A stretch of 50,890 bases of DNA from Lachnospiraceae bacterium (lineage in GTDB: Bacteria; Bacillota; Clostridia; Lachnospirales; Lachnospiraceae). The position numbers were made by a program, and so were the translations under genes. Location: positions 1 through 50,890 of the forward strand of contig JAETTM010000028.1 of assembly GCA_021769135.1 (NCBI GenBank), read 5' to 3'. The notes beneath the pieces were generated by a model. That model searched no databases. It was given only the letters and a program-made list of their open reading frames with translations, and was not told the origin of the DNA. This document shows positions 30,189 through 50,890 of the stretch, in pieces. Numbering within the stretch: the first letter of the stretch is position 1; the number at the start of each line of letters is the position of its first letter.

Positions 30189-30213
30189 TTTTGCGGCTGG
30201 AAAAGGAGAAATT

Positions 30214-31425: not shown

Positions 31426-31440
31426 AAGCGGAGTTAAGGT

Positions 31441-31755: not shown

Positions 31756-31765
31756 TAAATATAAA

Positions 31766-31890
31766 TGCGGAACTGGAATAAAAAAACAGCATCAGCCCGG
31801 ACAGTGCCCCGGAGTAATTTGCAGACGCGAAGCGGATGGAAATCACTCCGCGAGAAAGGGCACTGGTAGGGCGGATGCGGAACTGGAATA
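31766..31890 (+). repeat. Dispersed hairpin repeat, copy 4
   Basis: It starts with TGCGGAACTGGAA and ends with the same sequence before an AGGAGG site. CAGTGCCC (31802-31809) pairs with GGGCACTG (31858-31865), and CGGAG (31810-31814) pairs with CTCCG (31846-31850). It lies between two shell genes of one operon. Its stem bases differ from the other copies but still pair. Confidence 0.82.
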
Positions 31891-31901
31891 GGAGGTTAAG
31901 T

Positions 31902-32177
31902 ATGACGCAATTGGCATTGGGTATGATAGAAACGAGGGGCCTGACAGCAGCTATCGAAGCATCGGATGCAATGATTAAGGCTGCGGAAGTGACATTGATT
32001 GGCACAGAAAAAATCGGCTCTGGCCTTGTAACGGTTATGGTACGCGGCGATGTAGGAGCGGTAAAAGCGGCTGTGGAAGCCGGAAGCGTAAGGGCGGCAG
32101 CCCTTGGGGAACTGGTGGCTACCCACGTGATACCGAGGCCCCACAGCGATGTGGAGAAAATTTTACCTTTAATTTAA
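31902..32177 (+). CDS. BMC-H shell protein (PduA/PduJ-like)
   Basis: A 91-aa canonical [24 protein letters not shown], pore segment [24 protein letters not shown], and ending [17 protein letters not shown]. It forms hexamers with small pores for substrate passage. The ATG at 31902 has AGGAGG supplied at the end of the dispersed repeat; an upstream in-frame ATG at 31836 would translate the repeat and is rejected. It is a close paralogue of the domain at 32645-32923. Confidence 0.93.
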
Positions 32178-32188
32178 GGAGGTAAATC

Positions 32189-32506
32189 ATGGGAAATGCA
32201 TATGGGTTCTTTGAAATCCCAAGTACTACGGCAGCGATTGATGCTCTTGATATTATGTGCAAAACAGCCGATGTGGAATTCATTACATGGGAAAAGAAAC
32301 TGGGCGGCAGGCTGGTGACGATTATCATACGGGGAAGCGTATCGGATGTAAAGCAGGCGATAGAAGCGGCAGAGCATAACGCAATCAAAAAGCCGGCAGC
32401 TACAGTGGTAATTGCCAATCCCCATGAAGAAATCATTAAACTGGTGAAGAAGAGCGCCAGCCGCTTGACGAATATATCAACGGCCTGGAATGACGAAATG
32501 GAGTAA
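32189..32506 (+). CDS. BMC-H-like shell protein
   Basis: A 105-aa BMC-domain protein: AYGFFEIPSTTAAIDALDIM, ITWEKKLGGRLVTIIIRG and VSDVKQAIEAAEHNA, ending ANPHEEIIKLVKKS plus a short tail. The pore loop reads KKLGGR rather than KIGSG, so pore charge and size differ. The ribosome site AAGGAGG lies 8 nt before the ATG. The next gene starts 3 nt after its stop. Confidence 0.9.
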   Translation: MGNAYGFFEIPSTTAAIDALDIMCKTADVEFITWEKKLGGRLVTIIIRGSVSDVKQAIEAAEHNAIKKPAATVVIANPHEEIIKLVKKSASRLTNISTAWNDEME

Positions 32507-32509
32507 CAT

Positions 32510-32923
32510 ATGGCGGAACAGAAAAACGCGGCAAAAAAAACTCCGGCAAAAGCCGAAGATAATAAATTAAAAAAGACAGAAACAGTGAAAGCAGAAGCAA
32601 TAAAAGCTGAGTCAATGAAAACAGAGCCAAAGGAGGAAAAAAGGATGGCACAGGAAGCATTAGGAATGGTGGAAACAAGAGGTTTGGTAGCATCTATTGA
32701 GGCAGCGGATGCAATGTTAAAGGCTGCAAACGTAACATTGGTTGGAACGGAAAAAATCGGTTCCGGTTTGGTAAGCGTTATGGTACGCGGCGATGTAGGC
32801 GCAGTAAACGCAGCAGTGGAAGCGGGCAGCGCAAGCGCATCGAGATTGGGCGAACTGGTAGCAACCCATGTAATTCCCAGGCCTCATACGGATGTGGAGA
32901 AGATTCTTCCCGTTTTGAAATAA
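32510..32923 (+). CDS. BMC-H shell protein with lysine-rich N-terminal tail and a second internal start
   Basis: Residues 46-137 are a classic BMC-H ([45 protein letters not shown]). The first 45 residues are a Lys/Ala/Glu-rich tail with repeated KAE motifs ([15 protein letters not shown]). Two starts look usable: ATG at 32510 behind TGGAG, and ATG at 32645 behind a strong AAAGGAGG inside the tail. The gene may therefore make both a tailed and a plain subunit. The tail has no hydrophobic pattern and could bind partners or nucleic acid. Confidence 0.9.
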
Positions 32924-32973
32924 GGAACGGACAGGGGCTCATATACCCGGCAGCGGGGGATGGACTTAAGAAG

Positions 32974-33042
32974 ATGGGCGGGCATTGCCCGCCCATAAAT
33001 TTCATTACGATAAGCCGGCTCGCGGAGCGTGGCGGCGTTCGT
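32974..33042 (+). repeat. Hairpin plus 40-bp dispersed repeat before pduL
   Basis: ATGGGCGGGC and GCCCGCCCAT (32974-32996) form a perfect 10-bp hairpin. It is followed by a 40-bp repeat at 33004-33042 starting ATTACGATAAGCCGGC, found again at 37132-37171, also just after a hairpin. The hairpin may reduce read-through; no T-run is present. An open frame through this block is not part of PduL. Confidence 0.6.
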
Positions 33043-33072
33043 TTTATAGGCTTTATGTTTCGGAGGAGAAGG

Positions 33073-33762
33073 ATGATGGGCAATAACGGTATGGTAGATA
33101 GTATGGCCGATGGAATAACAGGCGGCCAGGTGGAGCTGATTGCCAGAATGGTAATGGAAGCAATGAATCAGAAGCAGGATACCGGCAAAGGATATATGGT
33201 TCCGGTGGGGGTCTCCGCAAGGCATGTACATTTGACCCAGGAGCATGTGGAAATCCTTTTTGGGGAAGGTTACCATTTGACGAAGAAAAAAGAGCTGATG
33301 GGCGGACAGTTTGCCTCTAATGAACTGGTGACGATTGTAGGCCTGAAGCTTAGAGCAATAGAAAATGTAAGGATATTAGGACCGGTAAGGAGCAAATCCC
33401 AGGTGGAAATCTCATCCACCGATGCGATAAAGCTGGGTGTGAAAGCGCCTATCAGGGAGTCCGGAAATGTGGCTGGCAGCGCCCCGATTGCGCTGGTAGG
33501 CCCGAAAGGGGCATTGTATCTTAAAGAAGGGTGCATTGTGGCCAAAAGGCATATCCATATGTCTCCGAAGGATGCGATGGCGGCGGGAGCGAAAGACGGC
33601 GATATTGTTTCCGTAAAGGCGGAGAACGAAAGAGGAACCGTATTCAATAATGTACAGGTAAGGGTAGATGAAAGCTTTACGCTGGAAATGCATATCGATA
33701 CGGATGAGGCCAATGCCGCTAAGATTGCAACAGGGGATACGGTGAGGATTATTAATGACTAA
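33073..33762 (+). CDS. pduL: Phosphate propanoyltransferase (PduL)
   Basis: A 229-aa PduL-type phosphotransacylase that converts propionyl-CoA and phosphate to propionyl-phosphate and regenerates CoA inside the shell. Two PduL repeats carry the zinc histidines in VGVSARHVHLT and VAKRHIHMSP, and the end reads HIDTDEANAA then GDTVRI. The N-terminal GGQVELIARMVMEAMNQK is an amphipathic helix of the encapsulation type. ATG at 33073 (or 33076) follows GGAGG. Confidence 0.93.
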   Translation: MMGNNGMVDSMADGITGGQVELIARMVMEAMNQKQDTGKGYMVPVGVSARHVHLTQEHVEILFGEGYHLTKKKELMGGQFASNELVTIVGLKLRAIENVRILGPVRSKSQVEISSTDAIKLGVKAPIRESGNVAGSAPIALVGPKGALYLKEGCIVAKRHIHMSPKDAMAAGAKDGDIVSVKAENERGTVFNNVQVRVDESFTLEMHIDTDEANAAKIATGDTVRIIND

Positions 33763-33863
33763 GGACGGGAATCGGGTTCGGTTTATAATGTCCGCTATCA
33801 TTTCATTACAGTTCTTAAGCGGCCGTTGCGCAAGAATGATTACAGAAAGGCATGGTTGTACAT

Positions 33864-34136
33864 ATGCTCATAGGGAAAGTAATAGGAAGTGTAGTATCTA
33901 CAAGAAAAAGCGAGAAATTAATCGGCAATAAATTTATGGTGATTGAACTGGCGGCTCAAATGAACGGAAACGGCGGCGGAAATCAGATGATTGCCATTGA
34001 CAATATAGGTGCGGGAATAGGCGAATTTGTATTGGTAGCCACCGGAAGCGCTGCAAGAATCGGCTGCGATATGGAAAATGCGCCTATAGATGCGGCAATT
34101 GTAGGCATTATTGACGACGGGAGCCGATGGATGTAA
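33864..34136 (+). CDS. EutN/CcmL-type pentameric shell vertex protein
   Basis: A 90-aa EutN-family protein: LIGKVIGSVVSTRKSEKLIG, then FMVIELA, AIDNIGAGIGEFVLVATGSA and DAAIVGIIDD. Pentamers of this family cap the vertices of the icosahedral shell. The start at 33864 fits the family; an upstream ATG at 33852 adds four residues and has a closer GAAAGG. The same GAAAGG-CATGGT leader shape precedes the next gene. Confidence 0.92.
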   Translation: MLIGKVIGSVVSTRKSEKLIGNKFMVIELAAQMNGNGGGNQMIAIDNIGAGIGEFVLVATGSAARIGCDMENAPIDAAIVGIIDDGSRWM

Positions 34137-34145
34137 TTAAGGAAT

Positions 34146-34252
34146 GATGAAGTGGCGAAGACACTTTTTTACCTTATAGGAAAGTCCGTCGTCAGACGGA
34201 TATAAGATGACGAAGAACCGAAGGTTCTTCATGAAGTGGCGAAGCCACTTTT
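34146..34252 (+). terminator. Cluster of short hairpins between eutN- and pduS-type genes
   Basis: AAGTGGCGAAGACACTT followed by TTTT (from 34150) is terminator-like. It is followed by TCCGTCGTCAGACGGA (34184-34200), GAAGAACC/GGTTCTTC (34212-34230) and AAGTGGCGAAGCCACTT with TTT (34233-34252). It may attenuate expression of the downstream redox genes relative to shell genes. Confidence 0.6.
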
Positions 34253-34275
34253 TGGGAAAGGGCATGGTCATTCGT

Positions 34276-35610
34276 ATGGAAGAGAATATCAGCATAGAAG
34301 AACTGAGCGGGATATTGCGCCAAAATGGCATAGTAGGCGCCGGTGGAGCAGGGTTTCCTACTTACGCCAAGCTGGACAAAAGAGCGGATACTATCATAAT
34401 GAACTGTGCGGAATGCGAGCCGCTTTTAAAGCTGCATCGGCAGCTGTTAGAGCAAAATGCTTATGAAATCGTAAAAACCTTTCATGGAATAGCCAAATGC
34501 GTAGGGGCGAAGGAAGCCGTCATCGGGATAAAGAAAGCGTATAAAAAGACAATAGATGCATTGAATAACTGCATCGGGGAATACCCGGAGATAAGGCTTG
34601 GGCTTTTGGATGAGGTTTATCCTGCCGGGGATGAAGTGGTTTTAATTTATGAAGTGCTGGGAAGAGTAGTACCCCCTGGCGGTCTTCCTATTGGAAGCGG
34701 CGTAGCCGTATTTAATGTGGAAACGGTATACAATGTATACAGGGCAACGGCCTTAGGGCAGCCGGTGGAAGATAAACTGATATCCATTGTAGGCGAGGTG
34801 GAGCATCCGGTTACGGTGAGGATGCCTTTGGGATGCACAATAGATGAGGCGGTGCGCCAGGCCGGGGAAATAACGGTAAAGAATCCGGTATATTTTATCG
34901 GCGGGCCAATGATGGGATTTGAAGGAAGCGGCGGTCTTCCCGTGACCAAAACCACTAATGCGGTGCTGGTATTGCCGGAAGAGCATCTGCTGATACAAAG
35001 GAAGAGGAGCAAATCTTCCATTGATTTGAAACGTGCGGCTGCTGCCTGCTGCCAGTGTACGATGTGCACGGACTTATGCCCCAGGCATCTTTTGGGCCAT
35101 CCTATCGAGCCCCATAAGTTCATGCAGGCGGCTACTTGCAAAGACATACAGGATACGGATATTTTCCTGAATACAATGTTCTGTTCTTCCTGCGGGCTAT
35201 GTGAGAATTATTCCTGCATGCAGGGGCTTTCCCCCCGTTCCCTGATAGCGGATTATAAAAACGGATTAAGGGCTCATGGGGTAAAACCGCCGAAAGCGGA
35301 AGCCGCCCCGGTGGCGGACGCCAGAGAGTTTAGGAAAGCGCCGATGGAACGGCTGATGGCAAGGCTGGATTTGGCAAAATATGATAAGCCCGCCCCGATT
35401 AGAGAGATGGACGGGGAAATCAGGCGGGTGAAACTGATGTGCAGCCAGCATATCGGCGCGCCGGCCATTCCGGTAGTAAAGGTCGGGGATGCCGTAGAAA
35501 AAGGACAGATGGTAGCGAAACCGGCGGATGGCTTAAGCGTTGCAATCCATGCTTCCATTAGCGGGAAAGTGGAGGAAGCAACGGAAAAATATATAATCAT
35601 CAGGAGATGA
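34276..35610 (+). CDS. PduS/RnfC-like iron-sulfur flavoprotein
   Basis: A 444-aa protein. The N-terminal half is the RnfC/NQO1-like nucleotide and flavin binding region (GAGGAGFPTYAKLD, NCAECEPLL, GRVVPPGGLPIGSG). An SLBB-like segment follows, then two [4Fe-4S] motifs, CCQCTMCTDLCPR and CSSCGLCENYSC. The C-terminus has a lipoyl-like VGDAVEKGQMV fold. PduS serves cobalamin reduction in B12-dependent systems; here no B12 enzyme is present, so it more likely moves electrons across the shell with the PduT-like protein. ATG at 34276 is preferred; 34264 is possible. Confidence 0.9.
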   Translation: MEENISIEELSGILRQNGIVGAGGAGFPTYAKLDKRADTIIMNCAECEPLLKLHRQLLEQNAYEIVKTFHGIAKCVGAKEAVIGIKKAYKKTIDALNNCIGEYPEIRLGLLDEVYPAGDEVVLIYEVLGRVVPPGGLPIGSGVAVFNVETVYNVYRATALGQPVEDKLISIVGEVEHPVTVRMPLGCTIDEAVRQAGEITVKNPVYFIGGPMMGFEGSGGLPVTKTTNAVLVLPEEHLLIQRKRSKSSIDLKRAAAACCQCTMCTDLCPRHLLGHPIEPHKFMQAATCKDIQDTDIFLNTMFCSSCGLCENYSCMQGLSPRSLIADYKNGLRAHGVKPPKAEAAPVADAREFRKAPMERLMARLDLAKYDKPAPIREMDGEIRRVKLMCSQHIGAPAIPVVKVGDAVEKGQMVAKPADGLSVAIHASISGKVEEATEKYIIIRR

Positions 35611-35629
35611 AGGGAAGGTTGTACATAAT

Positions 35630-36178
35630 ATGAGCAAGGCAATCGGAATGGTGGAATACAAAACGGTTTCTTCCGGGGTAACGGCGGCGGACGCTATGGT
35701 AAAGACCTCGGAAGTGGACATTATAGAGGCACAGACGGTATGTCCGGGCAAGTACATTGCGGTTATCAGCGGCGATTTGAGCGCGGTAAGGGCGGCCGTG
35801 GACACGGCAAAGAATAAATACGGCCTGCATCTGATTAACAGTTTTGTATTGGGGAACCCGCACGAATCCATTTTCCCTGCTATTTATGGGGCAACGCAGA
35901 TAGAGGGAATCAGCGCTCTGGGCATTTTGGAAACCTATGATGCGGCTTCTATTATCGTGGCGGCGGATATCGCGGCGAAAACGGCCATAGTGTCATTGAT
36001 AGAACTCCGTATCGCCAGGGGAATGTGCGGCAAGTCCTATATGATGCTGACCGGGGAAGTGGCGGCGGTGAATGCGGCCATAGAAAAAGCAAAGAATGAA
36101 ATCGGGGCCGACGGCATGTATCTGGATTCCACAGTTATCGCCCATCCGGATGATAAAATCTGCCGTGCAATTTTATAA
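35630..36178 (+). CDS. PduT-like tandem BMC (BMC-T) shell protein with Fe-S pore cysteine
   Basis: A 182-aa protein with two BMC domains in tandem: AIGMVEYKTVSSGVTAADAM, then ALGILETYDAASIIVAADIA. Cys38 in TVCPGKYIAV aligns with Cys38 of PduT, which binds a [4Fe-4S] cluster at the centre of the trimer. The gene directly follows the PduS-like gene, as in pdu loci. The pair could pass electrons through the shell. The second domain has ARGMCGKSYMM, another cysteine near a pore loop. Confidence 0.92.
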   Translation: MSKAIGMVEYKTVSSGVTAADAMVKTSEVDIIEAQTVCPGKYIAVISGDLSAVRAAVDTAKNKYGLHLINSFVLGNPHESIFPAIYGATQIEGISALGILETYDAASIIVAADIAAKTAIVSLIELRIARGMCGKSYMMLTGEVAAVNAAIEKAKNEIGADGMYLDSTVIAHPDDKICRAIL

Positions 36179-41996: not shown

Positions 41997-42350
41997 CTAG
42001 CGGCTCTCCTGGGAAATTTGGCTTGCATGGACCAAAGACTGATACATGGTTCCCCAATCAAATAGAGAAGCTATGATGGGGCGCATGGTATTGCCTAACT
42101 CGCTTAATGCATATTCTACCCGCACCGGTACTTCGGGATAAACAGTGCGGGTAATGATACCGTCTTCCTCCATGGAGCGGAGATTATCCGTTAAAACCCG
42201 TTGGCTGATGCCGGGAATATCTTTTTGCAATTCATTGAACCGCCAGGGGCGGTCTAACAACCTTTGTACGATAAATATTTTCCACTTATTTCCAATCAGC
42301 ATTAGTGTGGTGGCGACAGGGCAGGCAGGCAATTCGTCTTTCGTCAGCAT
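41997..42350 (-). CDS. HxlR-family transcriptional regulator
   Basis: A 117-aa winged-helix regulator: CPVATTLMLIGNKWKIFIVQ, RPWRFNELQKDIPGISQRVL and YALSELGNTMRPII are all hallmarks of HxlR. Several members (YodB, HypR) sense thiol-reactive compounds through the early cysteine present here (PACPV). It is divergent from the ACGX peptide/radical SAM operon with a shared 161-bp control region, so it very likely regulates that operon. Confidence 0.93.
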   Translation of the reverse strand: MLTKDELPACPVATTLMLIGNKWKIFIVQRLLDRPWRFNELQKDIPGISQRVLTDNLRSMEEDGIITRTVYPEVPVRVEYALSELGNTMRPIIASLFDWGTMYQSLVHASQISQESR

Positions 42351-42454
42351 TAATAAAACCTCCTATTTGCATATAACATTCATTTTTGCACTAAATGAGA
42401 AAAAGCTCACTACATAATAAAATAGTGCGTACTTTTATTTTTGATTGCTGCAAT

Positions 42455-42469
42455 CTATACTAAGTATAG
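42455..42469. promoter_or_regulatory. Palindrome in the HxlR/ACGX control region
   Basis: CTATACTAAGTATAG is a 15-bp perfect palindrome with a 3-bp centre. It lies about 45 bp upstream of the peptide start and includes TATACT, which may double as a -10 box. It resembles the TACT-N-AGTA operators of YodB-type HxlR proteins. Binding is inferred. Confidence 0.5.
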
Positions 42470-42511
42470 ACCAAGGAGGTCAGGAAATCAAGCAAACAGG
42501 AGGTAACTAAT

Positions 42512-42652
42512 ATGAGCAATCTTGAAAATGTAGCTGCATTTGCAACATCGGCCTGCGGTTCGGCCTGCGGGGCGGCGGACCCGAAGCCGGAGGAAAAGCC
42601 GTCATCGGCTTGCGGTTCGGCCTGCGGGGCGGCAGATCCGGAACAGAAATGA
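42512..42652 (+). CDS. ACGX-repeat RiPP precursor peptide (46 aa)
   Basis: A short peptide with a leader (MSNLENVAAFATS) and two near-identical core units, ACGSACGAADP and, after a KPEEKPSS spacer, ACGSACGAADP again. The four cysteines are all in A-C-G-(S/A) context, which is the signature of the ACGX-repeat peptide family paired with radical SAM/SPASM proteins. A perfect ribosome site (AGGAGGT) precedes it. The coding DNA of the two core units is also nearly identical, suggesting recent unit duplication. The maturase gene follows 102 nt later. The modification is probably a thioether link, but this is inferred. Confidence 0.88.
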   Translation: MSNLENVAAFATSACGSACGAADPKPEEKPSSACGSACGAADPEQK

Positions 42653-42754
42653 TTTTCGGATTATAAGAAACATAACGCATGAATGCGGTCATGGGCACAC
42701 AGCTTTCAGGTGTGTCCATGATGGCAGAAAAACAGCGCAGAAATGAGGTAAAAA

Positions 42755-43804
42755 ATGAAACCATACTTTGCCTTTCAATGGCATATTACAGATAAATGCG
42801 ACCAAAGATGCAAGCATTGCTACATTTTTTCCGAAGGCAGCAATATCTGCTTAAAGCAGATGGGATATGAGGAAATGGAAAGGGTAGTTTTAAGCTGCAT
42901 GGATATGTGTGAAAAGTTAGGGCGCACACCATATTTTTATATTACAGGCGGCGACCCGATTTTGCATAAAGACTTCTGGCGGCTTTGCGGCTTGCTTCAA
43001 AAGCATAATATTACTTTCGGCATTTTAGGCAACCCGTTCTATTTGAACGATGAGGTATGCAAAAGGCTTTACGGGTATGGCTGCAGAAAATATCAGCTAT
43101 CCCTGGACGGGATGCGCGAAACCCATGATAAATTCAGGAAGCCCGGCTCTTTTGATATTACCGTAGAAAAAATTGACTGCATTAAAAGAGCGGGGATGTA
43201 CTGTGCGGTTATGTCCACGGTGTCATGTGCCAATAAGGATGAATTTCCTGATTTGATTGATTTGGTGGTAGCTAAAAATGTGGATGTATTTGCATTTGGA
43301 AGATATTGCCCTACCTATAGACAGAAAAGGGAAAGCAACGGTTTCTTTCAGGAATACCATATACCGCCCCTTGAGTATAAAGCATTCCTGGAGAAATGCT
43401 GGGCGAAATACCAGCAATATAAAGACAGCCACACCACATTTCAGTTAAAGGACCACTTATGGACTTTGTTCCTGTATGAGAAAGGGATTTTCAAAATACC
43501 GGAAAACGCAAACAAGAAAATGATATATGACGGCTGCCACCTGGCAATCGGCCATATGACCATTCTTCCGACGGGCGATGTATATGCCTGCAGGCGAATG
43601 GAAAGTAAAATAGGAAATGTATTCGATACCTCCATGTATGACCTTTTTATGGGCGCGGATATGGAAAGGTATCGGGATTTTGATAAATTTGAGAAATGCG
43701 GAAAATGTGAACTTCGCGGATTCTGCAGGGGGTGCCCGGCTGTGTCCTATGGATATACTGGAAATATGTATGCGCCTGACCCGCAATGCTGGAAGGAGCT
43801 TTAA
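42755..43804 (+). CDS. Radical SAM/SPASM maturase of the ACGX system
   Basis: A 349-aa radical SAM enzyme. The cluster motif is CDQRCKHC (CxxxCxxC) near residue 14, then ITGGDPILH and LSLDGMRETHDKFR. The C-terminus is a SPASM domain with ILPTGDVYACRRM and CGKCELRGFCRGC and a last cysteine near the end, binding auxiliary [4Fe-4S] clusters. SPASM enzymes modify ribosomal peptides; the adjacent four-Cys peptide is the expected substrate. The ribosome region is the repeated motif ending GAGGTAAAAAATG. The next gene starts 2 nt after its stop. Confidence 0.92.
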   Translation: MKPYFAFQWHITDKCDQRCKHCYIFSEGSNICLKQMGYEEMERVVLSCMDMCEKLGRTPYFYITGGDPILHKDFWRLCGLLQKHNITFGILGNPFYLNDEVCKRLYGYGCRKYQLSLDGMRETHDKFRKPGSFDITVEKIDCIKRAGMYCAVMSTVSCANKDEFPDLIDLVVAKNVDVFAFGRYCPTYRQKRESNGFFQEYHIPPLEYKAFLEKCWAKYQQYKDSHTTFQLKDHLWTLFLYEKGIFKIPENANKKMIYDGCHLAIGHMTILPTGDVYACRRMESKIGNVFDTSMYDLFMGADMERYRDFDKFEKCGKCELRGFCRGCPAVSYGYTGNMYAPDPQCWKEL

Positions 43805-43805
43805 T

Positions 43806-44384
43806 ATGGATATCTTAGATTTAATGAAAGAACGCAGGTCTATCCGTAAATACAAGGATGGGCAGATAAACAGAAGGGATTTGGAAAAAATCATTGAAGC
43901 GGGGTTGTATGCGCCAAATGCCGGAGGCGGGCAGAGGGCAAGGATTGTAGCTGTTCGGAATAAAGAATTAGCTGAGAAAATCGGAAGGCTTAACCTTGCG
44001 CGGTTTGACCGAAGCCGCCTCGCGGGAGGATATGTTTCGTCAGAGCAGCCGAGCAACATAGATGACTCGACAATAAAAAACGGCTTTTACGGGGCACCTA
44101 CGGTATGCGTTATTTTTGGCGGGAAGAACTTTTTATACAGCATTCCCGATGCATTCTGCTGTGCCGAAAATATGGTGCTGGAAGCTGCAAATCTGGGGAT
44201 TGGGTCATGCATTGTTGCGAGAGGGGAAGAAACCTTCGATAATGAAGCAGGAAGGGCATTATTGAAAGAGTGGGGGATTCCCGACACGGATACGGCCCGG
44301 TGCTTTGTGATATTGGGATATTACGACGGCGATTATCCCAGAAATAAACCGCGAAAAGAAAACCGGTATTTGATAATAGAATAA
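43806..44384 (+). CDS. Nitroreductase-family flavoprotein
   Basis: A 192-aa nitroreductase: MKERRSIRKYKDGQINRRDL, then AGLYAPNAGGGQRARIVAV (FMN-binding), and a late CAENMVLEAANLGIGSCIVA. It uses FMN and NAD(P)H to reduce an unknown substrate. The ATG at 43806 has AAGGAG inside the preceding gene, so it is tightly coupled to the radical SAM gene. It could act on the peptide or supply redox chemistry for the cluster. Confidence 0.9.
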   Translation: MDILDLMKERRSIRKYKDGQINRRDLEKIIEAGLYAPNAGGGQRARIVAVRNKELAEKIGRLNLARFDRSRLAGGYVSSEQPSNIDDSTIKNGFYGAPTVCVIFGGKNFLYSIPDAFCCAENMVLEAANLGIGSCIVARGEETFDNEAGRALLKEWGIPDTDTARCFVILGYYDGDYPRNKPRKENRYLIIE

Positions 44385-44401
44385 ATACGGAGGTATAAGC
44401 T

Positions 44402-45034
44402 ATGGATGCGCAAACATGTTTAAAGAAGCTGCAATATGTTGGAGTGCTCAATTTTGCTACAGTGGATAAATGGGGAAAACCGCAGATAAGGAATATCAGC
44501 GCAATACATTATGAAAAAGAAGCCATGTATTTTTTCACTGCGCGGGGCAAGAATTTTTGTGAAGAACTGTTGGCGGACGGTAATGTCCAGATATTGGGGT
44601 ATACAAAATATAAGGAAATGATAAGGCTTTCGGCAAAAGCCGAGAAGGTGAGCGATGATGAACAAAGGAAATGGATTGACACAATCTTTGAAGAACAGCC
44701 CTACCTGTCGAATGTTTATCCGGATAACACAAGGGAAATCGGCATTGTGTTCTGTATAAAAAATGGGGAAATTGAATATTTCAATCTTGGGGTAAATCCT
44801 ATTTTCCGCGAAAGCTATACCATAGGAAATGCCGATATAAGCGAAAAGGGATATTATATATCACAGGATTGTATAAGCTGCGGCAAATGTATGAGGAACT
44901 GCCCGCAAAGATGTATCACAGCCGGCAAGCCGTATCAAATTACGCAGGAACATTGCCTCCATTGCGGAAATTGTTTTGAAAAATGTCCTGTGGGTGCAGT
45001 GAAAAGGCGGGGAATATCAAATGGAACAGAATGA
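44402..45034 (+). CDS. FMN-binding split-barrel protein with 2[4Fe-4S] ferredoxin domain
   Basis: A 210-aa fusion. The first 130 residues or so are a pyridoxamine-oxidase-like split barrel (LNFATVDKWGKPQIRNISAI, FTARGKNF). The end is a bacterial ferredoxin with CISCGKCMRNCPQRC and CLHCGNCFEKCPVGA. It is likely an electron carrier or flavin reductase. It sits 17 nt after the nitroreductase with a TACGGAGG site, so it belongs to the same operon and may feed electrons to the nitroreductase or the radical SAM enzyme. Confidence 0.9.
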   Translation: MDAQTCLKKLQYVGVLNFATVDKWGKPQIRNISAIHYEKEAMYFFTARGKNFCEELLADGNVQILGYTKYKEMIRLSAKAEKVSDDEQRKWIDTIFEEQPYLSNVYPDNTREIGIVFCIKNGEIEYFNLGVNPIFRESYTIGNADISEKGYYISQDCISCGKCMRNCPQRCITAGKPYQITQEHCLHCGNCFEKCPVGAVKRRGISNGTE

Positions 45035-45082
45035 AAGAAGATAAAATGGAGGTGGCATGGAATGTTTTCAAAGAGGAGGGCT

Positions 45083-45439
45083 ATGAAATCTACAGAAAGC
45101 GGCTTGGGGAAGATTGAGCAATTAAGGGAAAAAATAGAAAATGCGGATGCGATTGTGATAGGTGCGGGCGCAGGGCTTTCCGTTTCGGCAGGCTTTACTT
45201 ATACAGGGGAGCGCTTTCGCACGTATTTCCAGGATTTTATAGATAAATATGGATTTCAGGATATGTATTCCGGCGGCTTTTATCCGTTTGAAACTTTACA
45301 GGAGCAATGGGCCTACTGGAGCCGGTACATTTACATCAACCGATATATGGATGCGCCAAAACCGGTCTATGACAGGTTATTTGAGCTGGTTCGGGATAAG
45401 GATTACTTTGTGCTGACTACCAATGTGGGGTGTATATAA
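45083..45439 (+). pseudogene. Sir2-family deacetylase, 3' end cut by a mobile element
   Basis: It encodes the N-terminal part of a Sir2-like NAD-dependent protein: AIVIGAGAGLSVSAGFTYTG (NAD loop), then VLTTNV where relatives continue with D-H. Homology stops at about 45429 and a stop codon follows within four codons. The missing zinc and catalytic His regions would lie beyond the inserted element, outside the window. GAGGAGGG precedes the ATG at 45083. The gene was probably last in the ACGX operon. Confidence 0.82.
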
Positions 45440-45642
45440 AGGAAACAAGCGCTCAGTACATCGAAGTGCTTGAATTTAAGCAAAAAGTCCTCATTTTTGA
45501 TATGGGCAGTAGCTATGATTTAGTGAGGAAAAAGAAGATAATTTATAACTTGAATTGCTCAGTGGTTCTTGACCTCGGTTGTAAGGAAACAAAAGAGGGA
45601 TATTATACAATTGAAGATTTGCTGAAAGGTAAAACAAAGTAG
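45430..45642 (+). CDS. Small ORF at the element's left end
   Basis: A 70-codon reading frame opening with GTG at the junction and containing KQKVLIFDMGSSYDLVRKKK and GYYTIEDLLKGKTK. There is no ribosome site at the start and I do not recognise the product. It ends just before a good terminator at 45652, so it may be the tail of an element gene or a junction artefact. Confidence 0.35.
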   Translation: MYIKETSAQYIEVLEFKQKVLIFDMGSSYDLVRKKKIIYNLNCSVVLDLGCKETKEGYYTIEDLLKGKTK

Positions 45643-45651
45643 GCTTATGTG

Positions 45652-45686
45652 GACATTTCCAAAGAAAAGGAAGTGTCTTTTTCTTT
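45652..45686 (+). terminator. Terminator near the element's left end
   Basis: GACATTTCC (45652-45660) pairs with GGAAGTGTC (45669-45677) with one G-T pair, followed by TTTTTCTTT. It isolates the element genes from upstream transcription. Confidence 0.78.
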
Positions 45687-45713
45687 GCAACAAAATATAA
45701 AGGAGGTTCAAGT

Positions 45714-46232
45714 ATGAACAACACAGCGTTAAGAGCAGAGGCGCAGAGCGCCAACAACACACACATGGTTTTTGCAAACGAGGAACATGAGAAGTTTTAT
45801 TATGAAAAATTGGAACAGGCGAGGTATCAGGACTGCTATCACAAGGCTTTGATTTACATTCTCGGTATTTCAGAGGATACAAGGTATCATTTCAGCCAGA
45901 TCTACGATATGAAGTCCGGATTCATCAAGCCGGAGTGCCTGCATCAAGGCTGGCAGACAAGCGGCAGTGTCCGTGTGGTAAGGCTCGCCTTTAATCTTTA
46001 CACAGACGGAACGCCGAGTGTTGACGATTATAAGCGCAAGGATGAGCAGATAAGAGAGTGCCGGGAGTATTCGGTGAGTGATATTTTCTGTTGTGGCTAT
46101 GCGATGTACTTCTGGCAGGGCATTAAACTCCGTTATCCGGAATACTGCCAAAAGCAGAAGTCCATTGAAGAGATCCTTGCAGAAATGGAGAAGAAACGTG
46201 CTGAAAATTCGACTGATGGGAACGAAGAATGA
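45714..46232 (+). CDS. DUF6075-like conserved element protein
   Basis: A 172-aa soluble protein with EEHEKFYYEKLEQARYQDCY, CLHQGWQTSGSVRVVRLAFN and DIFCCGYAMYFWQGIKLRY. This type is a standard cargo of Firmicutes conjugative elements, usually just upstream of parA. It has been given a DUF name only. The start has a strong AAGGAGG site. The next small gene begins inside its last codons. Confidence 0.83.
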   Translation: MNNTALRAEAQSANNTHMVFANEEHEKFYYEKLEQARYQDCYHKALIYILGISEDTRYHFSQIYDMKSGFIKPECLHQGWQTSGSVRVVRLAFNLYTDGTPSVDDYKRKDEQIRECREYSVSDIFCCGYAMYFWQGIKLRYPEYCQKQKSIEEILAEMEKKRAENSTDGNEE

Positions 46233-46380
46233 TATTAAGTGGTTTGAAAAGATTCTGAAAAGACAGCCCAAAGTGGCTGTGACGGAAGTTTCGGAGCTGT
46301 ACCGGAATAAAGGTACAAACAGATATTACCGGGCTTATGTGGAAGTGCAGAAAGCCAACATCAAAGAAAAATCTAACTAA
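46198..46380 (+). CDS. Small conserved element protein (60 aa, DUF3970-like)
   Basis: A short protein starting at GTG 46198: KIRLMGTKNDIKWFEKIL, then SELYRNKGTNRYYRAYVEV. The start overlaps the previous gene by 35 nt, implying coupled translation. Similar small proteins precede parA in related elements. Its function is unknown; the family assignment is from memory of the pattern and is moderate. Confidence 0.68.
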   Translation: MLKIRLMGTKNDIKWFEKILKRQPKVAVTEVSELYRNKGTNRYYRAYVEVQKANIKEKSN

Positions 46381-46397
46381 TACGGAGGAATAAGACC

Positions 46398-47183
46398 ATG
46401 TGTAAAATTATAGCAATCGCAAACCAGAAAGGCGGAGTAGGAAAGACCACCACAACAAGCAACTTAGGGATCGGGCTGGCAAAACAGGGAAAGAAAGTCT
46501 TGGTAATTGATGCGGACGCACAGGGGAGCCTGACCGCAAGCCTTGGCTTCACGGAGCCGGACAAGCTGGAGGTCACTTTGGCGAATGTGCTGGAAAAGGT
46601 TATCAACGATGAAGAAATAGAGCCGGATTACGGCATCTTAAAGCATGACGAGGGGATTGACCTGATGCCGGGGAACATTGAGCTGTCCGGCCTGGAGGTT
46701 TCCCTTGTGAACGTGATGAGCCGGGAGATCATGCTCCGTTCTTATGTGGACAGGGTAAAGGAGAGGTACGATTATATTTTGATTGACTGTATGCCATCGC
46801 TTGGCATGATCACCATAAATGCCTTTGCCTGTGCCGACAGCATACTTATTCCGGTGCAGGCGGCATATTTGCCCGTGAAAGGCTTGGAACAGCTTATTAA
46901 GACCGTGGGCAAGGTAAAGCGGCAGATCAATCCCAAACTGGAGATTGAGGGCATTCTGCTGACAATGGTGGACAACCGTACCAATTACGCAAGGGATATT
47001 ACAGCATTGCTTATCGAAACTTACGGAAGCAGAGTACGGATATTTGAAAACAGCATACCGATGTCGGTACGGGCTGCAGAAACGTCCGCAGAGGGTGTCA
47101 GCATTTACGAGCATGACCCGAAAGGCCGGGTTGCGGGCGCATACCAGTCCTTGACAAAGGAGGTGCTTGGCAATGGGCAGTAA
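46398..47183 (+). CDS. parA: ParA-type partition ATPase
   Basis: A 261-aa Walker-type ATPase: IAIANQKGGVGKTTTTSNLG (deviant Walker A), then VLVIDADAQGSLTASLG and YDYILIDCMPSLGMITINA. It partitions the replicating form of the element with the ParB encoded next. The end overlaps the parB start by 11 nt. The ribosome site is TACGGAGG. Confidence 0.95.
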   Translation: MCKIIAIANQKGGVGKTTTTSNLGIGLAKQGKKVLVIDADAQGSLTASLGFTEPDKLEVTLANVLEKVINDEEIEPDYGILKHDEGIDLMPGNIELSGLEVSLVNVMSREIMLRSYVDRVKERYDYILIDCMPSLGMITINAFACADSILIPVQAAYLPVKGLEQLIKTVGKVKRQINPKLEIEGILLTMVDNRTNYARDITALLIETYGSRVRIFENSIPMSVRAAETSAEGVSIYEHDPKGRVAGAYQSLTKEVLGNGQ

Positions 47184-48048
47184 GGCAGGGAGTGCATCAA
47201 AAGTCAGATTGAACAGCTTTGATGATTTATTTGGCGGAGCAGAAAACACGTCAGGGGAACAAATTATCCATGCAAAGCTGACGGATTTACATACATTCAA
47301 AGGACACCCTTTCCGTGTCCTTGATGATGAAAAGATGGAGGAAACCACGGAGAGCATCGGGAAATACGGTGTGCTTGTACCCGGAATTGTAAGACCGAGG
47401 ACAGGGGGCGGCTATGAAATCATAGCCGGACACCGGAGGAAACGGGGTTCTGAAAGGGCAGGGTTAGACACGATGCCCGTCATTGTCAGGAATTATACGG
47501 ACGATGAAGCCACGATAATCATGGTGGATTCCAATATCCAGCGGGAGGACATCTTACCGAGCGAAAAAGCAAAGGCTTATGCCATGAAGTACGAAGCAAT
47601 GAAACACCAGGGAAGCAAAGGCGGCAGCACCCTTGACGAAGTGGGGGAGGCTGCCGGGGAAAGCGGAAAGACGGTGCAGAGGTATGTGTGGCTTGCAAGG
47701 CTTTCTGATGAGCTGCTTGACATGGTGGATAAGAAAAAGATAGGGATAGCCCAGGGCGTGGATATTTCATTCCTGAGCGAAGAAGCCCAGCAATGGGTAT
47801 CTGTTATCCTTGAGGAAACGGGGGCGGCAATGAACGCTTCCCAATCGTCAAAACTGAAGGAGTATGGGAAAAGCGGAGAGCTGACATTGCCAATGGTCAG
47901 GCTGATACTGGCAGAGGAAAAGCCAAAAGAGAGAAAAGTAACGATTAAGGGCGATAAGATCAGCAGGTATTTTTCGGAGGATTATTCCAATGACGATATA
48001 GAGGGCATCATTATCCAGCTTTTGGAGGAATGGCAGAGCAAGCAGTAA
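47173..48048 (+). CDS. parB: ParB/RepB/Spo0J-family partition protein
   Basis: A 291-aa protein with a ParB N-terminal nuclease-like CTPase fold: HPFRVLDDEKMEETTESIGK, GGYEIIAGHRRKRG and VDSNIQREDILPSEKA. A helix-turn-helix around ESGKTVQRYVWLARLSDEL follows. It binds a parS-like site and works with ParA. The ATG at 47173 has AAAGGAGG at good distance. It is the second gene of a parA-parB-rep operon. Confidence 0.94.
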   Translation: MGSKAGSASKVRLNSFDDLFGGAENTSGEQIIHAKLTDLHTFKGHPFRVLDDEKMEETTESIGKYGVLVPGIVRPRTGGGYEIIAGHRRKRGSERAGLDTMPVIVRNYTDDEATIIMVDSNIQREDILPSEKAKAYAMKYEAMKHQGSKGGSTLDEVGEAAGESGKTVQRYVWLARLSDELLDMVDKKKIGIAQGVDISFLSEEAQQWVSVILEETGAAMNASQSSKLKEYGKSGELTLPMVRLILAEEKPKERKVTIKGDKISRYFSEDYSNDDIEGIIIQLLEEWQSKQ

Positions 48049-48062
48049 AGGAGGCGGTAAAA

Positions 48063-49127
48063 ATGGGCGAGCCATTGAAATTTGATTATTACTATGGCAT
48101 TGAAGCAGAGCAGTTTTCTTTTTACCGTGTTCCCCGCCTGCTGATTAAAGATGAGCGTTTTAAGGGGCTTAGCAGCGATGCTAAGCTCCTGTATGGGCTG
48201 ATGCTTGACAGGATGTCGCTGTCCATGAAAAATGGATGGCTGGACGATGAAAACCGGGCATATATTATATACACAATAGACAATATCAGGGAAGATCTGG
48301 GATGCAGCAAAGAAAAGGCGGTAAAGGTTCTTGCAGAATTAGATGCAAATAAAGGGATAGGGCTTGTTGAGAAGATACGCAGGGGGCTTGGCAAGCCGGA
48401 TATTATTTATGTGAAGAATTTTATCATACAAGATGAAGGCAGAAAAGAGCCTTTAAATGCTGATGTTTCCACAGAAGTCGGAAAAACCGACTTCAAGAGG
48501 TCGGAAAAGCCGACTTCAAGAAGTCAGGAAAACCGACTTCAAGAGGTCGGGAAAACCGATTTCAGCAGGTCGGAAAAACTGACTTCAAGAGGTCGGGAAA
48601 ACCAACTTCAAGAAGTCGGAGAAACAGACCCTAATTATACTAACTATAATCAAACTGAAAATAACTATACTGATGTGAGTAATACCAATCCTATCAATCT
48701 ATCTGTGGGAAGTGAAGGCGGCGGAAGAACACAGGGGAAGGGCGATATGATTGATGTGATAGATGAAACAAGCGCATATATGGCGTTAATCCGTGATAAC
48801 CTGGAATATGAGTACCACATGGAATATGACCAGCATGGGGATAAGGAACTGTATGAGGAGATTTACGAAACCGTCTGTGATGTGGTCTGTGTGAAGCGCA
48901 GGACAATCCGCATCAATGGGGAAGAGTACCCTTATGAGCTTGTAAAATCCCGTTTTTTGAAACTGAACAGCGGCCATGTGGAGTATGTCATGAGCTGTAT
49001 GAGGGAAACCGTTACAAAGATCACCAATATCAGGGCATACCTGATTACGGCGCTCTATAATGCCCCCTCAACTATGAGCCATTACTACCAGCAGGAGGTG
49101 CAGCATGATATGTATGGCGGAGGGTGA
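48063..49127 (+). CDS. Replication initiator protein (RepA_N type)
   Basis: A 354-aa RepA_N initiator: the N-terminal domain has EQFSFYRVPRLLIKDERFKG, SSDAKLLYGLMLDRM and NIREDLGCSKEKAVKVL, a winged helix. The middle (about residues 138-190) is repetitive because the DNA there holds 23-bp tandem repeats. The C-terminal domain includes RRTIRINGEEYPYELVKSRF and ALYNAP. The ATG at 48063 follows AAAGGAGG. In RepA_N plasmids the origin lies inside rep, matching the repeats here, so the element can probably replicate after excision. Confidence 0.92.
   Translation: MGEPLKFDYYYGIEAEQFSFYRVPRLLIKDERFKGLSSDAKLLYGLMLDRMSLSMKNGWLDDENRAYIIYTIDNIREDLGCSKEKAVKVLAELDANKGIGLVEKIRRGLGKPDIIYVKNFIIQDEGRKEPLNADVSTEVGKTDFKRSEKPTSRSQENRLQEVGKTDFSRSEKLTSRGRENQLQEVGETDPNYTNYNQTENNYTDVSNTNPINLSVGSEGGGRTQGKGDMIDVIDETSAYMALIRDNLEYEYHMEYDQHGDKELYEEIYETVCDVVCVKRRTIRINGEEYPYELVKSRFLKLNSGHVEYVMSCMRETVTKITNIRAYLITALYNAPSTMSHYYQQEVQHDMYGGG
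48474..48630 (+). repeat. 23-bp tandem iteron-like repeats inside the rep gene
   Basis: Six 23-bp units begin at 48489, 48512, 48535, 48558, 48581 and 48604, with partial units on each side. The unit is roughly GACTTCAAGAGGTCGG-AAAACC. Because 23 is not a multiple of three, the units pass through all reading frames. The protein repeats only every 23 residues (VGKTDFKRSEK then VGKTDFSRSEK). GAAGTCGG/CCGACTTC arms also form hairpins. This is the likely replication origin. Confidence 0.87.
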
Positions 49128-49152
49128 GCAGAAAAGGGCATTACCTAACAGA

Positions 49153-49175
49153 CTTCTGGACACAATGTCCAGAAG
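49153..49175. repeat. Palindrome CTTCTGGACA-N3-TGTCCAGAAG, first copy
   Basis: Perfect 10-bp arms around CAA. An identical palindrome, with a different centre, lies at 50560-50582. A second hairpin, ACAGAGCAG/CTGCTCTGT, is at 49187-49217. The stretch 49128-49274 has no gene. Confidence 0.8.
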
Positions 49176-49274
49176 TGGCAGAAAATACAGAGCAGCTTAA
49201 TCTTTCGTCTGCTCTGTGTCCGGTGTAAATATAGTTACTAAAAATGGAGATAAAATAAAAAGGAGTACATGGAG

Positions 49275-49592
49275 ATGGATAAAAAAGAATTGCAGAAAAG
49301 TTATGATAAACTGGACAGAGTAGTAAAAGCATTGCTATTGGAAAAGCTGGCTTTCTGTAAATTTGCAGACCAAAATGATTTTGAAAATTATTTCAGGATA
49401 AAGGAATTAAAGGACAGTGAGCTTCTCTGTCTTACCAGTTGCCTCTATCATCATGGATGCTTTCTGTTACTGTTAAGTATTATGAGCCGTTATGAGGAGA
49501 GGTTTATTTTTACCGATTCTTCTCCTTTACAGGAGTTTGAGCCGGATGATGCCCTTATGGAAAGACTTTCCAGAGTGGGATTCCCGATGTGA
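49275..49592 (+). CDS. Hypothetical element protein (105 aa)
   Basis: A helical protein with KKELQKSYDKLDRVVKALLL, then ELLCLTSCLYHHGCFLLLLS and a final SRVGFPM. I do not recognise it. The start at 49275 has AGGAG nine bases upstream; 49269 is in frame but too close. It lies between two palindrome-bearing spacers and has cargo-gene composition. Confidence 0.68.
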   Translation: MDKKELQKSYDKLDRVVKALLLEKLAFCKFADQNDFENYFRIKELKDSELLCLTSCLYHHGCFLLLLSIMSRYEERFIFTDSSPLQEFEPDDALMERLSRVGFPM

Positions 49593-49664
49593 TGGATTCG
49601 TAAAGAGCAGGATGGACTTGTAGGCAGAAAAAGGATTCTGCAAAATAGAGGAGATAGAAACAAT

Positions 49665-49747
49665 ATGAACCTGCCAAAGAGCGGCGGGCGGCACTTTCGA
49701 GCCTTGCCTAAAGTGTGATTATCTTTTCAATCACACTTTGGGCAAGG
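49665..49747 (+). promoter_or_regulatory. Leader peptide and overlapping long hairpin
   Basis: A 17-codon frame (MNLPKSGGRHFRALPKV, 49665-49718) follows a good GAGGAGA site. Its end overlaps a stem of about 18 bp, CCTTGCC and AAAGTGTGATT pairing with AATCACACTTT and GGCAAGG (49702-49747). A second hairpin (CAGGGGT/ACCCCTG, 49752-49778) and a terminator follow. The layout resembles translational attenuation. Confidence 0.55.
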
Positions 49748-49808
49748 TTTCCAGGGGTACGGGGGTGGAAGACCCCTGTGTTAAAAAAATTAAATACGGA
49801 AACAGCGT

Positions 49809-49850
49809 AAGGGCGGTTATGGATCAACAGATTTGTAGCCGCCCTTTTTT
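49809..49850 (+). terminator. Terminator upstream of the 49894 gene
   Basis: AAGGGCGG (49809-49816) pairs with CCGCCCTT (49839-49846) and is followed by TTTT. It lies 44 bp upstream of the next start, so it could be an attenuator rather than a simple gene end. Confidence 0.82.
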
Positions 49851-49893
49851 ATTGCTTCCGGTCAATGTATCCGGGAGCGGAAAGGAGATAAAC

Positions 49894-50559
49894 ATGGAAT
49901 CGTTACGGGATGTAAAGAGGGCGATGGAGCGTGAGGTGAAAAAGGGGAGCTGCCCGCTCATGTTTGACAGGCTGGAGTTTGGTGCCAAGCCTTTCCAGGC
50001 AATCACATCAGAGGAAAAGCTGGATGAAGTGCTTGCATGGCTGTTAAGGATAAAGTCTTTCCGGCAGTATGCGGAAAAGACCATAATCAACAACGTGTAT
50101 ATGGATTTGGATATGCTCTGCAAAAAGCCGCAGTTTAAGCGCACCCATTCCGTCATAGACCGGGAGGGGATTTATGCAAGGGTGCAGAGGTACAAGAAGC
50201 GGTTACAGCCGGATTATGACAGCGGACTTTGTCTGGAAACGGTGCGGTGCATCTTCACGCTTCCGGAGGGGGAAGCGGGAAAATACCGTATGACCCATGA
50301 CGGGCAGGAAACTTATGCCTTTATCATGTCAAATAAATATATCCTGGGCCTGTTTACCCACTGTGAGGCGGCAAGGAAATCTGTTGTCATGGACAGGGTG
50401 GAGTTTGGACACCTTGCGGAGCAGGAGCAGAAGATCGTGCTACTTGATGGTGTAGGGGATGTGCTTTTTCAGGCGTTATTGCTTGATGATGTGGAATATG
50501 GCAATGATGAGCTGTCTGCCAATCTTTACACAATCTATTGCTTTAATGAAAAAGGATAG
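49894..50559 (+). CDS. Conserved element protein of unknown function (221 aa)
   Basis: A protein with KRAMEREVKKGSCPLMFDRL, VYMDLDMLCKKPQFKRTHSV and a late QKIVLLDGVGDVLFQALLL. It is of a type common in conjugative elements of Firmicutes (possibly DUF6329-like). No catalytic motif is visible. ATG at 49894 follows AAAGGAGA; an upstream in-frame start would translate the terminator and is rejected. Confidence 0.8.
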   Translation: MESLRDVKRAMEREVKKGSCPLMFDRLEFGAKPFQAITSEEKLDEVLAWLLRIKSFRQYAEKTIINNVYMDLDMLCKKPQFKRTHSVIDREGIYARVQRYKKRLQPDYDSGLCLETVRCIFTLPEGEAGKYRMTHDGQETYAFIMSNKYILGLFTHCEAARKSVVMDRVEFGHLAEQEQKIVLLDGVGDVLFQALLLDDVEYGNDELSANLYTIYCFNEKG

Positions 50560-50582
50560 CTTCTGGACATGATGTCCAGAAG
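50560..50582. repeat. Palindrome CTTCTGGACA-N3-TGTCCAGAAG, second copy
   Basis: The arms are identical to those at 49153-49175. The copy begins one base after the previous stop codon. A possible 18-codon frame (MYFKVKIVYDII, 50600-50656) follows before the PcfB-like gene. Confidence 0.8.
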
Positions 50583-50694
50583 TGGAAAGGGGAAATTCGA
50601 TGTATTTTAAAGTGAAGATTGTCTATGACATTATCTGCCGGGGGATTCCGCCTTAGTGTATGGCTTTTCCCGGAATGTAACAAGGAGGTGTTTC

Positions 50695-50890
50695 ATGCAG
50701 GAGGAAGTAACACAGAAAACAATCGCCCTTGTGATCAAGACCGCAAAATTAGATGCCAACGTGCTGAAAGCTGCAATGAAGATGTACCTGAACCACCATA
50801 AGCAGAAAGCACAGAAAACGCATGGAAAGACTTCTGTGAAAAAGCTCGTTGGCGAGGGCGTGGGGGCATCGTCTATCGAAATCACGGACG
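50695..50890 (+). CDS. PcfB-like (DUF3801) conjugation protein, 3' end beyond the window
   Basis: The first 65 residues are present: QKTIALVIKTAKLDANVLKA, MYLNHHKQK, then TSVKKLVGEGVGASSIEITD. The pattern matches PcfB/DUF3801 proteins that accompany the VirD4-like coupling protein in conjugative elements. The ATG at 50695 follows AAGGAGG. The gene is open at the window end. Confidence 0.85.
   Translation, partial: MQEEVTQKTIALVIKTAKLDANVLKAAMKMYLNHHKQKAQKTHGKTSVKKLVGEGVGASSIEITD

Follow-up and report, generated by a model that had tools for sequence, protein, structure and literature searches.

The ACGX-repeat locus and its genes

We analyzed a 50,890-nucleotide contig of a Lachnospiraceae bacterium (GCA_021769135.1, JAETTM010000028.1; hereafter the window), in which positions 41,997 to 45,439 hold the gene for an ACGX-repeat peptide, AcgA, next to that for a radical SAM maturase, AcgM. 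A first-pass annotation had described this region as an operon for a ribosomally synthesized and post-translationally modified peptide (RiPP), with a nitroreductase, a flavin/Fe-S protein, a Sir2 protein and an HxlR-type regulator. The open reading frames (ORFs) and the family models agree with the RiPP-type operon, its parts and its coordinates:

41997..42350, minus strand: HxlR/DUF24-type regulator, for which we propose the name AcgR, with an invariant Cys10 (PF01638, 106.9 bits)
42421..42436, plus strand: operator-like motif AATAGTGCGTACTTTT, between the regulator and peptide genes (motif search)
42512..42652, plus strand: ACGX-repeat precursor peptide AcgA, 46 aa, two double units, 4 Cys (TIGR04341, 27.8 bits)
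42755..43804, plus strand: radical SAM/SPASM maturase AcgM, 349 aa (TIGR04340, 547.8 bits)
43806..44384, plus strand: nitroreductase-family flavoprotein, 192 aa (PF00881, 85.1 bits)
44402..45034, plus strand: PNPOx-like split barrel fused to a two-cluster 4Fe-4S ferredoxin domain, 210 aa (PF01243, PNPOx_N, plus Fer4)
45062..45439, plus strand: 5' fragment, 125 residues, of a sirtuin gene assigned to class M (SirTM) by alignment to intact relatives

As read from the ORFs of the window, the regulator gene diverges from, and faces, the AcgA gene, which lies 103 bp upstream of the maturase gene. The arrangement is seen again in dozens of loci and is therefore not due to chance. The peptide-maturase family is already catalogued and its neighbors are already annotated in RefSeq, where a Roseburia plasmid carries in a row acgA, acgM and genes for a nitroreductase, a 4Fe-4S protein, a protein-ADP-ribose hydrolase, a Sir2 protein and a DUF1848 protein. 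In the literature searched, and judging from listings, we found no paper on the function of the ACGX system under its names. What is new here is the assignment of the Sir2 protein to SirTM, its pairing with a zinc macrodomain (Zn-Macro) across ACGX loci, the invariant cysteine of the regulator and a shared site upstream of the operon.

A Cys-repeat peptide and its radical SAM maturase

AcgM scores 547.8 bits against TIGR04340, whose curated cut-off is 400, and bears out the first-pass claim that a 46-residue peptide with two ACGSACGAADP units adjoins a SPASM radical SAM enzyme. The peptide itself falls just under the cut-off of TIGR04341 (27.8 bits against 28; E 2.9e-6). Against the PapB model AcgM reaches 55 bits, with a cut-off of 340, which places it outside the PapB family, and the best other named family is SbtM (154 bits, cut-off 350). 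By sequence comparison, AcgM begins at the radical SAM core, without room for an N-terminal leader-binding domain: its start aligns about 100–120 residues into its solved relatives SkfB, SuiB and 5wgg (which we take to be CteB), presumably where the leader-binding domains of these proteins end. A structural model of AcgM is good overall, with a predicted local distance difference test score (pLDDT) of 84.6, is poor at residues 14–31, the SAM-cluster loop, and matches SuiB, anSME, BlsE, SkfB and PqqE as its top folds.

To describe the repeat we collected 68 distinct peptides. One masked peptide (L173) was dropped; the peptide pattern found none in L006, L009, L014, L020, L033, L043, L053, L062, L063 and L181, and the peptides of L006, L009 and L043, plus that of L044, were added afterwards. 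The set holds 351 cysteines in a CG context, 2 to 9 per peptide, and the residue at +4 is Asp in 189, Cys in 137, Glu in 5 and another residue in 20. Asp or Glu thus stands at +4 for 194 of the 214 CG-type cysteines that lack a Cys there, matching the Cys-X3-Asp/Glu motif of ranthipeptides. From these counts we define the core unit as CGx(2)D, often with a CGx(2)C half-unit before it; five peptides (L022, L026, L052, L057 and L061) lack double units. The repeats are rich in Ala and Gly and by eye contain no His, and the spacers between them are rich in Pro, Glu and Lys.

In a metagenome-assembled genome of the Synergistaceae, a SirTM ORF (L043:4718-5926) reads in frame, with no stop, into an ACGX peptide, for 402 aa in total; AGGAGG and an ATG precede the peptide part, and a fusion and a lost stop are both possible. 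The archaeal plasmid pNP174, from Methanosphaera (L239), bears a helix-turn-helix gene and a small hypothetical gene, together with a maturase that is split and annotated as two genes and with a zinc-binding dehydrogenase; BREX genes lie a few kb away. Among sister maturases under the cut-off (G493, G555 and G699), the single one inspected (L219) had an unrelated context by eye. We rejected a role in anti-phage defense: no maturase was found in phage records at E 1e-40, and PADLOC gave only weak viperin-like matches for the maturase and a single weak BrxP match on the ferredoxin part, while SirTM, the macrodomain and the nitroreductase drew no match.

The sirtuin gene is truncated in the window, and its intact relatives are class M sirtuins

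The Sir2 protein of the first-pass annotation stood in part: the gene is of the sirtuin type, only a truncated 5' fragment of it is present, and its intact relatives are class M sirtuins, of the ADP-ribosyltransferase type, rather than deacetylases. The window ORF matches an intact relative over residues 6–134 of 291, with a TAA inside; intact relatives run to about 290 residues. Homology at the DNA level stops, in 15 matches from other genomes, at query positions 527–529, which corresponds to about 45,428 of the window. The fragment keeps the Asn of the nicotinamide adenine dinucleotide (NAD) site and ends just after it, without the active-site Gln and Arg of SirTM, and we presume from its sequence that it is non-functional. 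It received no significant Pfam or NCBIfam name, which says little because Pfam SIR2 matched one of the four sirtuin relatives scanned, and that below its cut-off. Beyond the broken gene, positions 45428-50890 carry a mobile-element backbone with DUF6075, ParA, ParB and RepA_N/DUF6017 genes. The match to this backbone begins at about 45,697 (in one other genome at about 45,651), and 45,697–46,400 has a second copy, at 95% identity, in the window's own genome (G000:C80:3734-4437).

For an intact sirtuin from an ACGX locus (L025), the best match in the PDB is SirTM 5a3a (247 bits), presumably from S. pyogenes, followed by a macro-SirTM fusion, 8rsn. Mapped through the alignment to 5a3a, the active-site Asn, Gln and Arg of SirTM are invariant in all 33 aligned relatives; Asn118, Gln137 (which replaces the catalytic His) and Arg192 are reported to be essential for SirTM (PMC4518038). 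Sequence thus assigns the intact relatives to the class M sirtuins, of the ADP-ribosyltransferase type, and we rejected deacetylase activity for them since they carry the class M Gln in place of His.

The macrodomain of the same locus has as its best PDB matches 8rsi, 5kiv, 8rsl, 8rsm and 8rsn, ahead of MACROD2; we take the first four for the zinc macrodomains of PMC11490716 and of an earlier study. A Cys, a His and a Cys are invariant in 24 of 24 macrodomains and are the probable zinc ligands. The operon of the window has no zinc macrodomain, and neither this gene nor the DUF1848 gene was visible to the first-pass annotation, because the window lacks both. An unlinked zinc-macrodomain gene lies elsewhere in the same genome (G000:C35:27149-27970; L081), with an aldo/keto-reductase-like and an Rrf2-like ORF close by, as judged by eye, and no SirTM match near it.

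SirTM and macrodomain genes recur beside the maturase

Scanning genome contigs yielded 73 loci; 59 (L006-L064) were kept as relatives and 14 (L065-L078; 23–29% identity) left out. A family sample contributed 20 more stretches and a class sample 17, and the window was included. Of these 97 records, 94 had a maturase ORF (L044, L054 and L164 were dropped for lack of one), and removal of four duplicates left 90, of which 65 non-redundant loci had at least 4.5 kb of downstream DNA and 25 shorter ones were set aside. A neighbor was counted if it was encoded on the maturase strand, no more than 5 kb downstream, and scored over 100 bits with hidden Markov models built here from the first locus set, a rule by which the window's fragment and a split gene (L181) count as SirTM.

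By this measure SirTM occurs in 42 of the 65 loci (the window's fragment included), a macrodomain in 33, either in 45 and both in 30. An earlier count of 52 loci, with other limits and without the class sample, gave 31, 22, 33 and 20, respectively. A nitroreductase or a zinc-type medium-chain dehydrogenase/reductase (MDR) is present in 60 of the 65, a PNPOx-ferredoxin protein in 24, and an HxlR gene within 3 kb upstream in 45. The first-pass annotation had called its two redox proteins a nitroreductase and a flavin/Fe-S protein, assignments upheld by PF00881 and by PNPOx_N with Fer4, and had staked its reading on the neighbors being kept in other ACGX loci; the redox neighbors do recur.

A DUF1848 protein also recurs in the operon, in 11 of the 65 loci (L027, L032, L033, L052, L057, L064 and others; PF08902 in the two scanned). 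Some ACGX operons contain an additional nitroreductase that has a ferredoxin domain at its N terminus (L166:9824-10690 and L174:9504-10388), and RelB-like, ParE-like and HD-domain genes stand between the PNPOx-ferredoxin and macrodomain genes at L221:6920-8203 and in the near-identical L222. We found no gene for GcvH-L or a lipoate ligase between the maturase and SirTM or the macrodomain, where eight of the unlabelled ORFs of 75 aa or more were scanned with Pfam and the rest read by eye. The eight gave two nitroreductase-ferredoxins, a nitroreductase, PCC, RelB, ParE, HD and one weak 3keto-disac_hyd match.

Sactipeptide and ranthipeptide bacteriocins have this layout of a precursor gene next to a SPASM maturase, and we therefore considered whether AcgA might give rise to a secreted bacteriocin or signal. 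SkfB and SuiB are among the nearest solved maturases, and 5 of 59 loci have genes of the ABC-transporter ATPase type (cluster 8, two members scanned) in their fetched flanks. These genes, the largest unlabelled cluster outside the operon, are however of differing types and lie away from it, while the neighbors within it are redox and ADP-ribosylation enzymes. We saw no transporter or peptidase, and no recurrent exporter or protease, between AcgM and the sirtuin or macrodomain. We rejected a bacteriocin on the lack of an export or protease gene inside the operon, and hold secretion of either kind to be very improbable.

Co-occurrence extends to whole genomes. In a class sample of 392 genomes, SirTM (E 1e-40) was present in 16 of the 17 that have a maturase over the cut-off, compared with 51 of the 375 without (P = 1.5e-12). 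The sole exception is the window's own genome, in which SirTM is truncated. SirTM lies on the same strand within 3.7 kb at 13 of the 18 maturase loci of this sample, in four families. In a family sample of 396 genomes the figures were 54 of 58 with a maturase and 170 of 338 without (P = 9e-11), the first of these counts having been made by eye from tables, with a SirTM threshold of E 1e-15 that also admits weaker sirtuin paralogs; SirTM was linked to the maturase locus in at least 24 of 60. Both P values treat related genomes as independent and so overstate independence. The sturdier point is the spread over families and over two well-separated clades of SirTM, since on a tree both of these deeply separate clades occur in ACGX loci.

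A thiol-sensor-type regulator and a shared upstream site

The regulator had been described as being of a thiol-sensing type, and its PF01638 match and conserved cysteine fit that description: Cys10 is the only conserved Cys column and is invariant in 40 of 40 aligned sequences, as expected of an HxlR/DUF24 thiol sensor. HypR, YodB and CatR of B. subtilis sense hypochlorous acid, quinones and diamide through an N-terminal Cys (PMC6943732). HxlR itself senses formaldehyde, by linking Cys11 and Lys13 (PMC7835342). We ruled this mode out for AcgR because the residue two after its Cys is an invariant Val in the same alignment.

Within 700 bp upstream of the maturase, GTGCGTAC is present in 59 of 84 loci, against a background expectation of 0.6 from the remainder of that DNA. 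AGTGCGTACTT is present in 42 of 84, with none in the background. In the window's genome the 13-mer AGTGCGTACTTTT has a single occurrence, at 42424-42436 of the window; a reversed-pattern control also occurs once, so a single genome adds little here. The YodB-type operator, which we take to be TACT-N7-AGTA, is absent from 59 distinct regions between the HxlR and peptide genes. We predict that the HxlR protein binds the GTGCGTACTT site. The 22 matches to the motif in viral contigs had no gene of the ACGX system in the fetched DNA and were put down to chance.

A regulator of this type raises the possibility that AcgA is a sacrificial scavenger of electrophiles or metal ions, matured or unmodified and recycled by the reductases, with ADP-ribosylation as a side branch. 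The several CG-type cysteines per peptide, the composition of repeats and spacers, and the window's own copy, which retains all but the sirtuin and the macrodomain, would all suit such a role. If every CX3D were a thioether, however, the five peptides without double units would have few or no free thiols, and the lack of His in the repeats disfavors metal binding. We consider a scavenger unlikely, though less so than secretion.

A proposed role for AcgA and its main rival

Tentatively, and short of an even chance, we favor a thiol- or electrophile-stress operon whose central product is a Cys-repeat peptide, made by the ribosome and kept inside the cell, and in which SirTM and Zn-Macro gate the matured AcgA. 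In such an operon, oxidants, quinones or thiol-reactive agents would hit Cys10 of the regulator, as its family and conserved Cys suggest, and would thereby turn on the operon, with the conserved GTGCGTACTT site as the predicted place of action of the regulator. AcgM would then modify cysteines of the CGx(2)D and CGx(2)C repeats of AcgA, with thioethers of the Cys-X3-Asp type as the likeliest product. The flavin and Fe-S oxidoreductases encoded alongside may act with AcgA on electrophiles, or on the peptide itself. Finally, the class M sirtuin and/or zinc macrodomain found in the operon of about two thirds of the relatives may control AcgA: the sirtuin would put ADP-ribose on the matured peptide and the macrodomain would take it off, gating its activity. 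This last step is modeled on SirTM and Zn-Macro acting on lipoylated GcvH-L, which SirTM ADP-ribosylates, probably on Asp27, in a reaction that the macrodomain reverses (PMC4518038, PMC11490716).

That AcgA is ADP-ribosylated is thus something we infer. The narrower claim, that SirTM has a second class of substrate in the AcgM-matured ACGX peptide, which would stand in place of lipoyl-GcvH-L and be gated in thiol stress by reversible mono-ADP-ribosylation, strikes us as less likely than not. Because its sirtuin is truncated and its operon has no macrodomain, the window itself would run only the steps up to the oxidoreductases, unless the unlinked macrodomain on contig C35 and some transferase take part.

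Nearly as likely, in our judgment, is a shared stress regulon with no substrate relation, in which SirTM/Zn-Macro and AcgA/AcgM are separate modules under one thiol-sensing regulator and the sirtuin acts on another protein. We rank it so close because SirTM/Macro pairs are far commoner than the peptide and often stand alone, even behind the same site. Among 20 SirTM regions away from a maturase (L142-L161; one, L145, gave no SirTM ORF and was kept in the 20 for peptide and motif counts), 16 hold a SirTM-Macro pair, 8 of these with an HxlR gene. In three of the 20 (L146, L150 and L160) the motif GTGCGTACTT lies beside a SirTM/Macro operon that lacks ACGX, and in one of these (L160) a PNPOx-ferredoxin protein is present without AcgA. 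Three others (L149, L154 and L157) resemble one another in the protein encoded upstream, which in L149, the one scanned, is NAD(P)-binding. Separate modules are harder to square with how tightly the genes co-occur and adjoin across several families and two SirTM clades, and with the fact that no other carrier-like protein recurs in the operon.

Several further observations, like the three peptide-free operons behind the same site, weigh against gating of AcgA by SirTM and Zn-Macro. At E 1e-15, SirTM is present in 224 of 396 genomes and so is far more widespread than ACGX, present in 58 of 396, and a pattern search found no ACGX peptide in the 20 regions away from a maturase; the pair must therefore have other substrates and may have only those. 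Neither SirTM nor a macrodomain lies within 5 kb in 20 of the 65 ACGX loci. Linkage to ACGX, mapped as a label on the SirTM tree, switches 7 times, compared with 16.6 times when labels are shuffled, so the linkage is clustered yet has been gained or lost repeatedly. In the window, the ADP-ribosylation arm is broken.

The peptides point the same way. Asp stands at Cys+4 in 112 of 127 cases with SirTM or a macrodomain in the locus and in 77 of 87 without, a "without" group that includes loci with short fetched DNA. Because these shares are equal, the Asp tracks AcgM and not the sirtuin, as separate modules would have it, and gives no support to our candidate of this Asp as the ADP-ribose acceptor. 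Two peptides from loci with SirTM or a macrodomain (L041 and L177) have units with Ala at +4.

If gating of AcgA by ADP-ribose is correct, AcgA would be a RiPP that serves inside the cell as a redox cofactor and is controlled by ADP-ribose. The linkage to ACGX names a concrete, small and easily expressed candidate target of SirTM in Clostridia, with its own maturase and hydrolase. For the ACGX family it supplies a context (thiol stress, probably intracellular, and ADP-ribosylation) and a candidate operator, which makes function directly testable.

Elsewhere in the window

Judged by eye from ORF starts, positions 21697-36178 hold a large ORF of glycyl-radical-enzyme length, then a radical SAM activase-like ORF and several short ORFs resembling microcompartment shell proteins.

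Comparison with known systems

The locus belongs to the ACGX system as known from sequence catalogs (TIGR04341/TIGR04340), with the same gene pair in the same order; the regulator site and the SirTM/Zn-Macro content are not part of the definition of that family. With YodB, CatR and HypR of B. subtilis it shares the N-terminal Cys of the regulator and a regulon containing a nitroreductase, in the YodB-type regulon YodC, for quinone and diamide detoxification (PMC6943732), whereas the rest of the cargo differs. With the PapB ranthipeptides, of which freyrasin has Cys-X3-Asp motifs as its repeated core and a radical SAM maturase (PMC9413430), it shares that core motif and a radical SAM peptide maturase. 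It differs from them in the low score of AcgM with the PapB model, in that no leader-binding domain is seen, and in the CX3C half-units and Ala/Gly-rich repeat of AcgA.

The closest parallel is the extended SirTM operon of S. aureus and S. pyogenes, which encodes GcvH-L, LplA2, SirTM, Macro, OYE and LLM, includes flavin oxidoreductases and responds to oxidative stress (PMC4518038, PMC11490716). GcvH-L was described in 2024 as the only known target of SirTM, those of other SirTM/Zn-Macro systems being unknown (PMC11490716). The term "radical SAM" is absent from the main text of PMC11490716, and "radical" from that of PMC4518038. In the literature searched, judged by title or abstract, we found no paper treating a link of ACGX or radical SAM enzymes to SirTM.

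Both operons have a SirTM with Gln in place of His, a zinc macrodomain, flavin oxidoreductases and a link to oxidative stress, and we draw a further parallel in that each would have a small sulfur-bearing carrier and an enzyme that equips it. In the ACGX operon the carrier would be a Cys-repeat peptide, not lipoyl-GcvH-L, and the equipping enzyme a radical SAM/SPASM protein, not LplA2; a nitroreductase, MDR or PNPOx-ferredoxin protein stands where OYE and LLM would be, control is by an HxlR protein, and the copy in the window has no Macro and a broken SirTM. By this analogy, the best-supported account of the ACGX operon is that it parallels the SirTM/GcvH-L/LplA2 operon, with AcgA in the place of GcvH-L and AcgM in that of LplA2.

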